A stretch of 64,000 bases of DNA from Nitrospirota bacterium. GTDB lineage: Bacteria; Nitrospirota; Nitrospiria; Nitrospirales; Nitrospiraceae. The position numbers and the translations under genes were made by a program. Under the pieces are notes generated by a model, which was not told the DNA's origin, did not search any database, and saw only the letters and a list, made by a program, of their open reading frames with translations. Positions 10,650 to 18,281 of the stretch are shown piece by piece; the first letter of the stretch is position 1, and each line of letters begins with the position of its first letter. The stretch spans positions 1-64,000 of the forward strand of contig JAUXVD010000015.1 of assembly GCA_030684575.1 (NCBI GenBank). The letters run 5' to 3'.

Positions 10650-11747
10650 ATGGCCCTCCCCCGCAACCCCGATCGCGGCCTCTATGCTCGCGTGAATGTT
10701 CACGGTGAGGAGCGCTGGTACGTGCGCATCGCGGTCAATGGCCGGATGCGCACCTTCGCTCCACATGGCGGTTTTCCCGCCGAGAAGGAAGCGCGGGAAT
10801 TTCTCGACAACACCCGTGCCGATATCCGCAGGGGGAAATTCTTCCCCGACTCCTTCACGCGCCAAGTCCTGCCCCTCAAGGCGCTTCTTGAGCAGCAAGA
10901 AAAACGGCGCCGGAACACACCCAACAGCAAGAACGATGCGCAGTATCAGACCTGGTGGATCCAGCACTACGGCCAGCGCGACCTGCGGACGCTCGACCCG
11001 GCCCTCATCGATGAGGCGAGACGGCAATTAGAGACCGACAAGAAACGTCCGCAGACCATCCATCACTATCTCAAGTTCCTCCGCCACGCACTCAACCTCG
11101 CCATCCGGGACGAGCAGCTCGACCGTTCCCCGTTTCAACGTGTCAAGTTGCCACCGGTCCACAATCTGCGCGAGCGGTTTTATTCCATGAAAGAACGCAG
11201 GGCCCTCTATGCGGCGCTGGGGCCCATCTGGCGGGAGGCGGCGGAACTGGCAGGACTCACCGGCCTCCGTTGGTCGGAGCAGTTCGGGCTCGAACGCAGC
11301 CGCGTGAACGTGAAGGCGGGCCATCTCGTGCTGGCGACCACCAAGGCCGGACGGCCACAGACCAGGCTGCTCAATACTCGAGCCCGAGAACTCTGCCGGA
11401 TCCAACTGAAACGCGCGGGCACAAGCCGCTGGCTCTATCCCAACCAGACCAAGACCGGCCCGATCGACTATGCCAATTTCCGGAAACGCATCTGGCTCCC
11501 CGCCTGTGAGGCCGCAGGCTTGACGAACGCGAGGTGGAACGACTGGCGGCACACGTTCGGCAGCGATCTCACGATGGCGGGCCATTCCGACCGCACCGTG
11601 GCCCATCTCCTCGGCCATACCAGCACGCAAATGGTCAAACGGTACGCCCACCTCGCGCCGAGCCACCTGAAGGAAGCCGTCGAAGGGTTGGGCACTGCGA
11701 AGCAACTGCAAACTCGCCGACCATCCAAAAAGCGGAAGTCGTTGTAA
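10650..11747 (+). CDS. int: Tyrosine recombinase/integrase
   Basis: 365 residues: an N-terminal arm-type region (RGLYARVNVHGEERWYVRI), a SAM-like core-binding domain (about 70-165) and the catalytic domain. Visible catalytic parts are Arg in TGLRWSEQFG (about 205), WNDWRHTFGS (about 300), LLGHTSTQ (about 325) and nucleophile Tyr in KRYAHLAP. The box-II His of the usual HxLRH is Asn here (NDWRH). It would integrate and, with an excisionase, excise the element at the adjoining tRNA-Arg 3' end, 14 bases downstream. Confidence 0.95.
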   Translation: MALPRNPDRGLYARVNVHGEERWYVRIAVNGRMRTFAPHGGFPAEKEAREFLDNTRADIRRGKFFPDSFTRQVLPLKALLEQQEKRRRNTPNSKNDAQYQTWWIQHYGQRDLRTLDPALIDEARRQLETDKKRPQTIHHYLKFLRHALNLAIRDEQLDRSPFQRVKLPPVHNLRERFYSMKERRALYAALGPIWREAAELAGLTGLRWSEQFGLERSRVNVKAGHLVLATTKAGRPQTRLLNTRARELCRIQLKRAGTSRWLYPNQTKTGPIDYANFRKRIWLPACEAAGLTNARWNDWRHTFGSDLTMAGHSDRTVAHLLGHTSTQMVKRYAHLAPSHLKEAVEGLGTAKQLQTRRPSKKRKSL

Positions 11748-11761
11748 GTGGTTGATTTATT

Positions 11762-11838
<77 letters not shown>

Positions 11839-12334
11839 ACTCTATTTATCAATCACTGATGTGCAGAGTAATCGGCCATGGTCTCGACAACTGTTCCCAG
11901 CTTGTTCGCCTGGAGGTATTTGTGAACCTTTTGCGCTGCTTGCGTCAAGCCCCGCTCACGCGAGGGATTATACCGGCCTAGAATCTAAATTCCCACATGC
12001 CTGCGCATCAGCCAGGTACCACGGGAAAATAGACTGCGCATGCTCTGTCGGGACAGGAACGGTCCGGAAAGGACATGACCCTGGCCGCCCCCTCCGTCAC
12101 TCGTTACCGAGGCTGACATAGCCGCGCCCAAGACTGCCACGGCGAGCCAGCCGGTGAAGGAAGCCTCACAAAAAGCGGCCTATCTTGCATCCGGGATCTA
12201 CCTATCAAATGAAGCAGCGTGCGAACGATTTTTTACGCAGATGAATACCTCTCCATCATTGATCCGACTCACACCCGTGATATACTTGACCGCGATACGT
12301 TGCATATCCCGACCGATCGAACCGGGAAAGGTAG
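11839..12334. other. Non-coding gap between tRNA-Arg and lipoprotein gene
   Basis: About 500 bases without a convincing gene. The frames present show no conserved motif or ribosome site. It may hold the promoter of the 12335 gene, but no clear box stands out. Confidence 0.5.
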
Positions 12335-12985
12335 ATGATGCTCATCACGACCATGTTTCCAGGCCAAGCCCTTGTGTCCCTCCTCCTCAGTCTGCTGATG
12401 CTTGCAACCACGTCATGCGACACCCTGGACGCACTCACGGAAAGCACAAAAGAGAAGATGCTTGAGAACAAGGAAGCGCTAATCGGCAGCCTCGCCGGCG
12501 GCACAGCAGGTGCGACGATTGGGGGCCTGGCCGGGAAGAAAAAAGGAGCCATCATCGGGGGAACCGTCGGCCTCGTATCCGGTGGGCTGATTGGAAACTA
12601 CTACGCCAAACGAGAGCGCGATCGGACTCAAACGACGGCCTCCGTTGGGTATCGCCCCGAACAAGGCAACATTCTGACGATCAGCGACACACTGGCATCG
12701 CCCTCTGTTGCCAAACAGGGAGACTCCGTAAAGATCAATGCCAAGTACACCATCCTCAGACCAGACGAAAACAAGGCGACCATCAAGGAAACACGTGAGA
12801 TCCGTTATAATGGAACAGTCGTGGACACACAAACAGCCGAAATTCAGCTGGATCAGGGTGTGCAGAACATTACCTGGGAATATCCCATCTCCCGTGAAGC
12901 CAAATCCGGCAACTACCAAGTCTTAACCACCGTCGCCATCGATGACAAAAACGCTGCAGCCACAGCCACGTTTTCGATTAAATAA
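12335..12985 (+). CDS. Glycine-zipper outer-membrane-type lipoprotein, 216 aa
   Basis: Signal peptide with lipobox (LLMLATTSC, Cys near residue 28; ATG 12338 is an equal start). Residues 45-90 form a glycine zipper: GSLAGGTAGATIGGLAG, then GAIIGGTVGLVSGGLIG, probably membrane-inserted. The C-terminal 110 residues are a beta-rich domain (VKINAKYTILRPDE, ITWEYPISREAKSGNYQ), like proteins that assist envelope integrity. It lies 42 bases before the caspase-like gene on the same strand and is likely co-expressed with it. Confidence 0.8.
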   Translation: MMLITTMFPGQALVSLLLSLLMLATTSCDTLDALTESTKEKMLENKEALIGSLAGGTAGATIGGLAGKKKGAIIGGTVGLVSGGLIGNYYAKRERDRTQTTASVGYRPEQGNILTISDTLASPSVAKQGDSVKINAKYTILRPDENKATIKETREIRYNGTVVDTQTAEIQLDQGVQNITWEYPISREAKSGNYQVLTTVAIDDKNAAATATFSIK

Positions 12986-13027
12986 GTCTGTCGGTCGTTG
13001 CTCCACCGCTTTTCAGCAGGTCATCCT

Positions 13028-16000
13028 GTGACGCGGTGGCTTTCGGCCTCAGCTTGGGCATGCCTGCTGCTGCTGACCGGTACAGTCGTTCAATCTGTAC
13101 CGAGCGGGTGGGCCGCCTCACCGACTCAACCAGAGCCACCTCCTTCTTCACCTCCCCTCCTCCGTATCGAAGCCGGTCGGCACACCAGCAGCATTCTGCG
13201 AATCAGCACTGACGAACACAACCGCTACTTAGCAACGGTCTCCCTCGACAAGACGGTACGCATCTGGGGACTGCCGAAACTTGAGCTTCAAACCGTCCTC
13301 CGTCCACCGATCGGCAGTGGAATGAAAGGCACCTTGTATGCCGTTGCCATATCCCCCAATGGCCTCAGCATTGCGTGTGGAGGTGTGGAGGGAGAAGTCC
13401 TGATATTTGATCGGGAAACAGGGCGTCTGACCAATCGATTGCATGGCTTTCCCAACATCATCAATCATCTCACCTACTCGCGGGACGGTCGGTGGCTCGT
13501 CATTACGCTAGGAGGCCAACAGGGTATCCGGCTCTACGCCACCAAGACCTACACCCAGGTCGATCAGGACTCCGCCTATGCGGCGGCGAGCCATTATGCA
13601 GAGTTCAGCCATGACGGACGATTGATCACCGTATCGGACGATGGCCATCTTCGTCTCTACGAGGTAGGCGCAACCAGCACGTCACCGCTCACGCTCATCG
13701 GCAAACGAAAACTAGCCGGTGACCGCCCTCGTTCTGCCAGCTTCTCCCCTGACGGCAACACATTGGCGGTGGGATTTGTGGACCATCCCAGGGTGGATCT
13801 GGTATCGGGAAAGGACCTCACCGCGCTGACCTCCCTCCCCACGTCCAAAGTGGACGAAGATCAGTATTTCATATCCGTCGCATGGTCCGGCGATGGTCAA
13901 GGCCTCTATGCGGCAGGAAGTTATCAAGAACGCGGCAAGACCGGACATGCACGCGGCACGACCTTCATCCGCCGGTGGACGATCGGTGCAAACAAAACCT
14001 TCCAAGACTATCCCGTGTCAGAAGGCTCTATCGAGCAATTACTCTCCCTGAAAAACGGGGACGTGATCTTCGCCTCGCACGATCCTGCGTTGGGTGCCAT
14101 CGACAGCTCCGGCATTCGCACTCAATATCTTGGCCGTCCTATTCCGGACTTTCGCGGCATGGGCGAAGAGTTCATGATCTCGGAAGATGCCGCAGTCGTG
14201 AAGTTTGCCTACAACCGCGGCAACTCGTTTACCATGTTTTCGCTCCCTGCCAGATCCTTCGCGCAAGATCCCCCGCCAGGCCTTGTGTTGCATGGCCCAG
14301 ACCGTGGAGAGTCCACCTTCACGATGTTCGGGCTGCTCGGAGACGACAAGAAAGATCTCCGGATCACAGACTGGCATGACTCGCCGGCGCCTCGACTCAA
14401 CGGCCGGCCGCTCCCCCTCCAGCCGGGGGAACTCTCTCGCAGTCTCGCCATCGCACCGGACCAAAACAGCTTTCTGCTCGGCACGGAATCCAAGCTACGG
14501 CTCTTCGCACGTGACGGGACCCCACGGTGGCACATTTCCGTTCCCGGCATTGCCTGGAACGTGACCATTTCGAAAAACGGTCGCCTGGCTGTCGCCGCAC
14601 TAGGAGACGGCACGATCCGATGGTTTCGCCTCCAGGACGGTCAGGAACTACTGGCGCTCTACCCCCACACCGATCGAAAGCGCTGGATCGTCTGGACGCC
14701 CAAAGGCTATTTCGACGCCGAGACAGATGCGGAAGCACTCATCGGGTGGCATCTGAATCGCGGCAACAACCGCGAAGCCGAGTTCTACGATGCCTCGCAC
14801 TTCTTCGAGCAGTTCTACCACCCGGAACTCGTGGCACGAGTGCTTCACACAACAGAGGCCGATACAGCCGCGCTCCAATATTTCGGCCAACAGGAGCGAG
14901 TCAACTTGGCCGTCGGATTTACTTCCCCGCCGACGGCCACCATCACGGCCCCTACGCTGAATGCCCAGTTGAACCAAGAAGAGATCGACGTGACCGTAAC
15001 CGCTGAGGATCAAGGAGGCGGGATCGGCGAGATACGCCTCTACCACAACGACAAGCTCGTCGGAGCCGACATTCGCGGGATCGCCGTGGCAGCAGATACC
15101 GCGGTACGGAAGCAGCGAACCCTCCCGTTTCATATCCGCCTCATTCAGGGAGAGAACAACCTGAGAGCCGTGGCCATCAGCACGGCCAGGATCGAAGGGA
15201 AATCGGTCGAGCTGCGAATGACCTTTAACGGGCCGCAGAAACAAGCCGTCCTGCATCTCATTGCAGTCGGTATCAATCAGTATCAGAACTCTGCGTTGAA
15301 CCTCAATTTCGCCCAACCTGATGCCGCGGGCATTCTGAAGTTTTTCTCTGCGTCATCGTCCAGTCTGTTTCGAACCGTCAAAATCACCGAGCTGTTCAAC
15401 AACGGTGCAACCAAGACCGAGTTACTCACGAAACTCCAGAGCCTGAAAGGCACGGCTCCGGAAGACGTCGTCATCGTGTATCTTGCCGGACATGGTGAAA
15501 GTGTTGGCGCAGACTGGTACTTCCTCCCACACGAAGTCGTGTATCCCGAGCGGCCGGAAGAAATACGGCAGAAGGGCATCTCGTCACAAGAGATAAAAGA
15601 CCTGGTGATGCAGATCGGAGCCAAGAAGGTGCTCTTGCTCATGGATGCCTGCAAATCGGGCTTTGCCCTGCAAGCATTTTCAGCCAGAGGCGTGGACGAA
15701 CGCCAGGCCTTGGCTCAGTTGGCGCGGGCCAATGGCGTTCATATCGTGGCTGCGTCCACAAAAGATCAGTTCGCCAGCGAAGTCAAAGAACTCGGACATG
15801 GGGTGTTCACCTATACCCTCCTCGAAGCGCTCCAAGGGCAAGCCGACGGGAGCCCGAAGGACGGCATCGTCACGGTGCGAGAACTCCTCGCCTTTGTGGA
15901 AGCCCGCCTGCCAGAACTCAGCCTGAAATTCAAAACCGAACGGCAGTACCCGGTCGCCGAATCCCGTGGCATGGATTTCCCCATCGCAGCGATCAAATAA
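13028..16000 (+). CDS. Secreted WD40 repeat protein with C-terminal caspase-like domain
   Basis: 990 residues from GTG 13028, which gives a clean signal peptide (WLSASAWACLLLLTG); a TTG at 12998 would add ten residues. Residues about 50-520 are WD40-type beta-propeller repeats, e.g. DKTVRIWGLPKLELQ and FSHDGRLITVSDDGHLRLY. Residues about 630-720 form an Ig-like domain (TATITAPTLNAQLN, IRLYHNDKLVG). Residues about 735-990 are a peptidase C14 fold: VIVYLAGHGES with His822 and LLLMDACKSGF with Cys875 form the dyad. Members may be paracaspase-like proteases acting after Arg or Lys. The signal peptide places it in the periplasm. The substrate is unknown. Confidence 0.9.
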   Translation: MTRWLSASAWACLLLLTGTVVQSVPSGWAASPTQPEPPPSSPPLLRIEAGRHTSSILRISTDEHNRYLATVSLDKTVRIWGLPKLELQTVLRPPIGSGMKGTLYAVAISPNGLSIACGGVEGEVLIFDRETGRLTNRLHGFPNIINHLTYSRDGRWLVITLGGQQGIRLYATKTYTQVDQDSAYAAASHYAEFSHDGRLITVSDDGHLRLYEVGATSTSPLTLIGKRKLAGDRPRSASFSPDGNTLAVGFVDHPRVDLVSGKDLTALTSLPTSKVDEDQYFISVAWSGDGQGLYAAGSYQERGKTGHARGTTFIRRWTIGANKTFQDYPVSEGSIEQLLSLKNGDVIFASHDPALGAIDSSGIRTQYLGRPIPDFRGMGEEFMISEDAAVVKFAYNRGNSFTMFSLPARSFAQDPPPGLVLHGPDRGESTFTMFGLLGDDKKDLRITDWHDSPAPRLNGRPLPLQPGELSRSLAIAPDQNSFLLGTESKLRLFARDGTPRWHISVPGIAWNVTISKNGRLAVAALGDGTIRWFRLQDGQELLALYPHTDRKRWIVWTPKGYFDAETDAEALIGWHLNRGNNREAEFYDASHFFEQFYHPELVARVLHTTEADTAALQYFGQQERVNLAVGFTSPPTATITAPTLNAQLNQEEIDVTVTAEDQGGGIGEIRLYHNDKLVGADIRGIAVAADTAVRKQRTLPFHIRLIQGENNLRAVAISTARIEGKSVELRMTFNGPQKQAVLHLIAVGINQYQNSALNLNFAQPDAAGILKFFSASSSSLFRTVKITELFNNGATKTELLTKLQSLKGTAPEDVVIVYLAGHGESVGADWYFLPHEVVYPERPEEIRQKGISSQEIKDLVMQIGAKKVLLLMDACKSGFALQAFSARGVDERQALAQLARANGVHIVAASTKDQFASEVKELGHGVFTYTLLEALQGQADGSPKDGIVTVRELLAFVEARLPELSLKFKTERQYPVAESRGMDFPIAAIK

Positions 16001-16164: not shown

Positions 16165-16241
16165 TGGTCGGGGCGACAGGATTCGAACCTGCGACATCCT
16201 GCTCCCAAAGCAGGCGCGCTACCGAGCTGCGCTACGCCCCG
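16165..16241 (-). tRNA. tRNA-Pro (TGG)
   Basis: 77 bases with encoded CCA (16165-16167). Acceptor CGGGGCG/CGCCCCG. The anticodon loop reads CTTTGGG around TGG. The T-arm GGTTCGAATCC is standard. No mobile gene is attached. Confidence 0.96.
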
Positions 16242-17700: not shown

Positions 17701-17943
17701 ATGAAAACGACCGCTCAGAAATGGGGCAATAGCCTGGCCGTCAGAGTTCCGAAAAGCATCGCGGAGCAAGCGGGCCTCAAGGTCAACGATGATTTGGACA
17801 TTGAAGTCAAAAAAGGCATGCTCATCCTGAAGCCTCACCTCCGTCGCGTGTACAGACTTGAGGACTTGCTCAAACGCATGACCTCTGAGAATGCCCACGA
17901 TGAAGTCGAGTTTGGTGGCCCTGTCGGGCATGAGGCACTCTGA
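17701..17943 (+). CDS. mazE: MazE/AbrB-type antitoxin
   Basis: 80 residues. The N-terminal SpoVT-AbrB swapped-hairpin domain is clear: KWGNSLAVRVPKSIAEQAGL, then DLDIEVKKGMLILKP. The C-terminal tail (LEDLLKRMTSEN, EVEFGGPVGHEAL) would wrap and block the toxin. The stop overlaps the toxin start (TGATG), giving coupled translation. It autoregulates through the upstream palindrome. Confidence 0.93.
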   Translation: MKTTAQKWGNSLAVRVPKSIAEQAGLKVNDDLDIEVKKGMLILKPHLRRVYRLEDLLKRMTSENAHDEVEFGGPVGHEAL

Positions 17944-18281
17944 TGGCAGCCAGAAAATACGTCCCTGACCGTGGAGATATCGTCTGGCTCCAATTCACGC
18001 CGCAAGCCGGACATGAACAGGCAGGACATCGCCCGGCCCTGGTCCTCTCGCCGGCCAGTTATAATCGGCGCAGCGGTTTGATGCTTTGCTGCCCGATCAC
18101 CAGTCGTGTAAAGGGCTATCCATTTGAAGTGGCATTAGGAGAGGGAGAGGATTTGGCAGGCGTGGTCCTCGCCGACCAGGTCAAAAGCTTAGACTGGAAG
18201 GCCCGGCAAGCCAGCAAGAAAGGAAAAGTCTCCACACAAGTCATGGCAGAGACTTTGAGCAAATTGCACACACTACTCTGA
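17943..18281 (+). CDS. mazF: MazF/ChpB-type endoribonuclease toxin
   Basis: 112 residues. Family blocks: YVPDRGDIVWLQFTPQAGHE, HRPALVLSPASYN, LMLCCPITSRVKGYPFEV, GVVLADQVKSLDWKAR. The barrel core and the RNA-binding loop are intact, so the toxin is probably active. MazF toxins cut mRNA at short sequences and cause growth arrest when the antitoxin is lost. It lies between mtnA and the polysaccharide locus, convergent with the latter. Confidence 0.93.
   Translation: MAARKYVPDRGDIVWLQFTPQAGHEQAGHRPALVLSPASYNRRSGLMLCCPITSRVKGYPFEVALGEGEDLAGVVLADQVKSLDWKARQASKKGKVSTQVMAETLSKLHTLL

Follow-up and report, generated by a model that had tools for sequence, protein, structure and literature searches.

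The window analysed here is a 64,000-nucleotide (nt) stretch of contig JAUXVD010000015.1 (C15 in our numbering) from a Nitrospirota bacterium (GCA_030684575.1; genome G000), a 3.79 Mb genome whose close relatives are Nitrospira metagenome-assembled genomes. It contains two adjacent genes on the + strand, one for a glycine-zipper lipoprotein and one for an exported protein that joins WD40 propellers to a metacaspase domain, and both open reading frames are intact (Table 1). The lipoprotein stop codon and the GTG start of the caspase gene at 13028 are separated by exactly 42 nt, the spacing given in a preliminary description of this DNA. An alternative TTG start at 12998 would give a caspase protein of 1000 amino acids (aa) and a gap of 12 nt; the alignment is compatible with either start. 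A promoter-like site upstream of the pair (12259–12286) was considered and does not rise above chance expectation. The guanine plus cytosine content of the pair (57.3%) against that of the window (57.7%) gives no compositional signal of recent transfer.

The pair is conserved as a unit. Close relatives of the caspase protein (E 0, 52–96% protein identity) are present in 7 of the 175 Nitrospira-family genomes searched, and in all 7 the lipoprotein gene lies directly upstream on the same strand. The gap between the genes is 42 nt in the window and in G382, 99 nt in G371, 4 nt in G339 and 9 nt in G325. Five of the 32 genomes of the genus carry the pair, and its presence is therefore patchy. It occupies at least three genomic settings, so inherited synteny alone does not account for the linkage. 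Purifying selection acts on both genes, with a ratio of non-synonymous to synonymous substitution rates (dN/dS) of ~0.11–0.14 for each when G000 is compared with its nearest relatives.

A homologous lipoprotein also accompanies a second, unlike caspase type, which was found by a caspase-profile scan of the flanks around distant lipoprotein homologues followed by a search with the short caspase. This exported caspase of ~425 aa lacks WD40 repeats and is present in 10 genomes of three other Nitrospirota families (f21, f27 and f31); in all 10 the genes run in the order DUF4384 protein, glycine-zipper lipoprotein, short caspase, with the lipoprotein directly upstream of the caspase. By contrast, no lipoprotein of this profile was found within 1.5 kb of any of 32 other caspase loci. 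The preliminary description had called for a check of co-occurrence across Nitrospirota and had held that its pairing would fall if the two genes shared no conserved neighbourhood; because adjacency is 7/7 among the close relatives and 10/10 among loci of the second type, that objection fails. A lipoprotein family and an exported-caspase family that are each common in Nitrospirota could in principle come to stand side by side by chance or as passive neighbours, but these counts against 0/32 control loci, the gaps of only 4–9 nt in two genomes and the varied genomic settings leave next to no probability for that explanation. The caspase domains of the two paired types are only 23–26% identical, whereas the window caspase domain shares 55–57% identity with WD40-caspases without the lipoprotein; hence the pairing has two origins, unless the lipoprotein was lost or the caspase replaced. 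The lipoprotein tree is compatible with either one or two origins of the caspase-linked lipoprotein kinds (p-AU 0.51 in the approximately unbiased test). In G160 a further gene (L189:11001-12119) lies downstream of the short caspase and gives a weak match to the lipoprotein profile (45.7 bits) without a glycine-zipper call; its product is perhaps a partner with the immunoglobulin (Ig)-like part only.

The larger protein of the window has, in one polypeptide of 990 aa, the propeller, Ig-like domain and intact His/Cys dyad that had been described, except that the propellers are two in tandem and not one. The signal peptide, like the lipobox of the partner, was read from the sequence, and the hydrophobic N terminus is retained in orthologues. 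Residues 50–361 superpose on seven-bladed propellers (Z 36–37, root mean square deviation (r.m.s.d.) ~2 Å over ~280 residues). Double propellers such as those of 2ymu and Apaf-1 align over residues 49–571 with Z 35–38 and large r.m.s.d.; for 2ymu, the Z of 38 comes with an r.m.s.d. of 13 Å. Pfam gives 65.7 bits for WD40 (PF00400) and 53.7 bits for Peptidase_C14 (PF00656; cut-off 21.4), and since the scores exceed curated cut-offs or are strongly significant, chance is excluded for the propellers and the caspase domain. The match lists of the structure search with the caspase domain were filled by propellers, and this domain was assessed by profile. A profile built from 25 related caspase domains matches yeast metacaspase-1 (E 4.4e-10) and MCA2 (E 2e-5), in alignments that span both catalytic motifs, that of His and that of Cys. 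All 20 aligned full-length homologues and all 25 caspase domains retain His822 and Cys875. Asp765 (DA motif) is also invariant and Asp873 (DxC motif) nearly so; both align with the Asp residues that border the Arg/Lys pocket of metacaspases such as TbMCA2. Domain score, His/Cys dyad and acidic pocket residues thus mark the protein as a predicted metacaspase/orthocaspase (peptidase C14), and Arg/Lys-specific proteolysis is predicted for the domain. Mature orthologues contain just one or two cysteines, which would fit an oxidising compartment.

On its own, the large protein belongs to a kind already described, because WD40-metacaspases and their abundance in Nitrospirae were reported in 2012 (PMC3501461): in the accessible part of that survey, WD40 is the commonest metacaspase partner domain (10.9% of sequences), metacaspase density is high in Nitrospirae (1.11 per 1000 proteins) and OmpA domains are noted in 14 metacaspase operons (Asplund-Samuelsson et al. 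2012, PMC3501461). The window protein shares with those metacaspases the C14 domain with its His–Cys dyad and the WD40 partner domain, but that part of the survey describes no dedicated glycine-zipper lipoprotein partner, whereas here a separate gene encodes a glycine-zipper/Ig lipoprotein (PMC3501461). The pairing itself has no description that we could find in the searched literature, which excludes most subscription journals. Two other comparisons are of interest. As in the caspase pathway of Apaf-1, which is among the structure matches, there are two tandem propellers; here, however, propellers and caspase form one exported polypeptide, in which Pfam detects no CARD or NB-ARC. The caspase domain also matches the model of EACC1-associated caspases (NF047832) with 71.4 bits, but this is under the 140-bit cut-off, and no EACC1-type neighbours were identified.

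The partner carries both marks of a glycine-zipper envelope lipoprotein, a Gly-zipper_Omp domain above its cut-off (PF13488, 35 bits against 25) and a lipobox, TTSC. The lipobox is retained in 6 of 7 orthologues; the open reading frame called in G371 lacks it, perhaps through a draft-genome error. Residue +2 after the lipobox Cys is Asp, Gln or Glu in different orthologues, and sorting to the outer or inner membrane can therefore not be read from it. Lys and Arg residues are numerous near the hairpin. The nearest curated model is YiaD_Gzip_OmpA, which the lipoprotein matches with 40.4 bits against a cut-off of 175; Pfam finds no OmpA domain in its C-terminal part, which is modelled as Ig-like and aligns at Z 10–13 with the Ig-like domains of many enzymes and of RbmA. 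A two-helix glycine zipper is an ordinary motif in many Gram-negative envelope lipoproteins. The zipper had been called pore-like; with YiaD as the nearest curated model and an Ig-like binding domain making up the remainder, we do not retain that term. The window protein resembles YiaD/SlyB-type lipoproteins in having a lipobox followed by the two-helix zipper, and differs from them in scoring under the YiaD model cut-off and in having an Ig-like sandwich in place of the OmpA domain.

Table 1. Features of the lipoprotein–caspase pair in the window, and loci of the second paired type. pLDDT, predicted local distance difference test.
Feature	Position	Strand	Basis
Glycine-zipper/Ig-like lipoprotein gene, 216 aa	12335–12985	+	PF13488 above cut-off; kept upstream of caspase in 7 genomes
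Lipobox TTSC, residues 25–28; predicted acylated Cys28	12407–12418	+	Read from sequence
Glycine-zipper helical hairpin, residues 50–92	12482–12610	+	PF13488 match; helix of low confidence in model
C-terminal Ig-like beta-sandwich, residues 111–216	12665–12982	+	AlphaFold2 pLDDT ~89–98
Exported double-WD40/Ig/metacaspase gene, 990 aa	13028–16000	+	GTG start; AlphaFold2 mean pLDDT 79
Predicted Sec signal peptide, ~residues 1–30	13028–13117	+	Basic start, hydrophobic core, AWA-like cleavage site
First seven-bladed WD40 propeller, residues 50–361	13175–14110	+	Structure match; PF00400
Second propeller, ~residues 362–588	14111–14791	+	Model strand pattern; 2ymu alignment
Ig-like (Big_7) domain, ~residues 633–733	14924–15226	+	PF17957, 32.7 bits against cut-off 24.1; model strands
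Metacaspase (C14) domain, residues 740–990	15245–15997	+	PF00656; profile match to solved metacaspases
Catalytic His822 (AGHGES)	15491–15493	+	Invariant in homologues
Catalytic Cys875 (MDACKSG)	15650–15652	+	Invariant in homologues
DUF4384–lipoprotein–short caspase operon loci	L188:834-4092; L189:7645-10936; L190:145-3265; L101-L103; L194; L196; L198; L200

As the two genes constantly travel together, they probably form one protease module of the cell envelope. We tentatively favour a reading in which the lipoprotein docks and regulates a periplasmic, propeller-gated Arg/Lys protease that serves envelope surveillance or repair. The lipoprotein would be acylated and inserted in the membrane through its glycine-zipper hairpin, and its Ig-like domain would hold or gate the exported caspase, at the periplasmic face of either the outer or the inner membrane. 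There the WD40 propellers may bind an envelope ligand or a misassembled partner; binding would relieve the caspase domain, which would then cleave at least one envelope protein after Arg or Lys. The output would most likely be envelope surveillance, remodelling or repair. An envelope-stress sensor was among the roles first suggested for the pair, and it fits better than defence or cell death, although it is a role that we infer.

The strongest rival, which we judge somewhat unlikely, is that the lipoprotein is not an anchor at all but a substrate or inhibitor of the caspase, the signal being its cleavage or release. Strict co-occurrence, fixed gene order and correlated divergence agree with a dedicated substrate or inhibitor no less than with an anchor, and the abundance of Lys and Arg around the hairpin also speaks for this reading; a conserved cleavage motif is not established, however, and homologues without a neighbouring caspase are common.

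The evidence on the docking and surveillance role that we prefer points both ways. In its favour are the constant adjacency and order of the genes, the varied genomic settings, the recurrence with a second caspase type, the conserved catalytic and pocket residues and the low cysteine count. The divergence of the two proteins is also correlated (r 0.98, 7 taxa), although shared species history contributes to this value. Against it, other WD40-caspases of the phylum (~36–40% identical over their full length) are found without the lipoprotein, and homologous lipoproteins often stand alone, so neither protein is generally dependent on the other. In G085 there is a lone lipoprotein homologue with 38% identity, and a deltaproteobacterial relative of the lipoprotein (L166) has no caspase neighbour that is obvious by eye. 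On the favourable side, related exported WD40-caspases elsewhere in Nitrospirota cluster with genes for FecR, DUF4384, CHASE2-cyclase and CHAT-TPR proteins and an MlaE/MlaD transporter, which are mostly envelope functions; the purpose of envelope surveillance rests on these neighbours of relatives, and not on the window itself.

The genomic settings of the pair differ. In G000, G151 and G379 it sits between a tRNA-Arg and a tRNA-Pro gene (11762–11838 and 16165–16241 in the window), and in the window a tyrosine integrase gene (10650–11747) abuts the tRNA-Arg. From this tRNA rightwards the window sequence is shared by G151, with the pair and both tRNAs but without the integrase side, and because the homology starts at the tRNA-Arg the pair adjoins the integration site without belonging to the element. 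The pair had been placed next to an insertion hot spot: it does adjoin the integrase-bearing tRNA-Arg, but lies outside the element, which ends at that tRNA, and carriage as cargo was rejected. Both tRNA genes around the pair resemble integration sites; in G372, an integrase adjoins the same tRNA-Pro (L134). Transfer among G000, G151 and G379 need not be invoked, since the identity of the pair (94.4%) is on a par with that of the best-conserved flanking genes (94%). Close by in the window (17701–18281) are two small genes that by eye resemble an AbrB/MazE-type antitoxin and a MazF-type toxin; they stand beside mtnA in G372 and are absent at this place in G151.

In G382 the pair lies within an island rich in exported proteins; the corresponding island of G000, on contig C23, is without it. 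By mtnA, G382 is as close a relative as the others (~90% DNA identity), but the DNA of its pair is only 70.9% identical, and this pair alone suggests a separate lineage. In G339 and G325 the neighbours are genes for CHAT-TPR, TPR-barrel, PP2C and FHA proteins, with at least one of these in each genome. The pattern of settings suggests gain and loss of the pair as a unit. The island in G382, and the alignment of the lipoprotein Ig-like domain with RbmA and carbohydrate-handling proteins, would also suit a surface or extracellular adhesion and processing unit, in which Ig-like domain and propellers bind polysaccharide or neighbouring cells and the caspase matures secreted biofilm proteins. To this we attach a slender likelihood, as Ig-like matches at Z 10–13 are generic and no export route other than Sec was identified for the caspase.

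Patchy presence (7/175 family genomes), at least three settings and integrases at the tRNA-Arg next door and at the same tRNA-Pro in G372 are also what an anti-phage or cell-death module might display. Bacterial caspase–gasdermin pairs set a caspase-family protease gene beside the gene of a membrane-associated partner, and the window pair shares this arrangement. Moved to the envelope, such a pair would sense invasion through the caspase, which would cleave the lipoprotein, and the zipper would permeabilise the membrane. However, the partner is a zipper with an Ig-like domain, in which Pfam finds no gasdermin, lone homologous lipoproteins occur in many genomes, and both proteins seem to be exported, which would keep them apart from phage replication inside the cell. 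The defence context is wanting too. PADLOC models give no match to the lipoprotein and one weak HEAT-ARM match to the propeller of the caspase protein (E 0.019), and around the pair they detect no known defence elements, the neighbours matching generic caspase, TPR or HEAT models only. No relatives were found in phages, plasmids or IMG/VR viral contigs, and a mobile-defence origin is therefore set aside. The cell-death or defence module put forward in the preliminary description is, on these grounds and with the pair outside the element, not borne out; we regard it as rather improbable, and a pore-forming or suicide role is no more than a possibility.

Nitrospirota and other bacteria have many exported caspases, for which we know of no substrate or regulator. 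With low confidence, we extend the envelope protease module to a Nitrospirota envelope caspase pathway, in which a dedicated glycine-zipper/Ig lipoprotein would control an exported metacaspase in at least two architectures (double-WD40 and short) and four families, acting as a proteolytic switch for envelope damage, like an inflammasome outside the cytoplasm. A partner gene beside two unlike caspase architectures provides a handle on these proteases: a candidate co-expression partner, a cell location and residues to mutate. If the proposal is true, caspase-type proteases serve the bacterial envelope besides cell death and phage defence.

Some further loci concern caspases elsewhere in these genomes. 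In several Nitrospirota an MlaE/ABC/MlaD/TPR transporter cluster lies near exported WD40-caspases, DUF4384, FecR and CHASE2 genes (L069:14426-17001, L184:11954-15490, L185:12350-15638 and L186:10372-13645; the cluster genes were Pfam-checked in L185 only). The large exported-protein island of G000 (G000:C23:86000-140000; L127-L129), whose counterpart is on G382:C50 (L112, L131 and L132), contains three caspases, an extracytoplasmic function (ECF) sigma/anti-sigma pair, a DUF4384 protein and a VgrG-like protein (Phage_GPD, 217 bits) with an apparent signal peptide, an unusual feature in a baseplate hub. Finally, neither of the usual motifs, HG and DxCxSG, was found in a C14-matching protein of G000 (G000:C4:36016-36693; L130:7429-8826), which is possibly an inactive caspase homologue.

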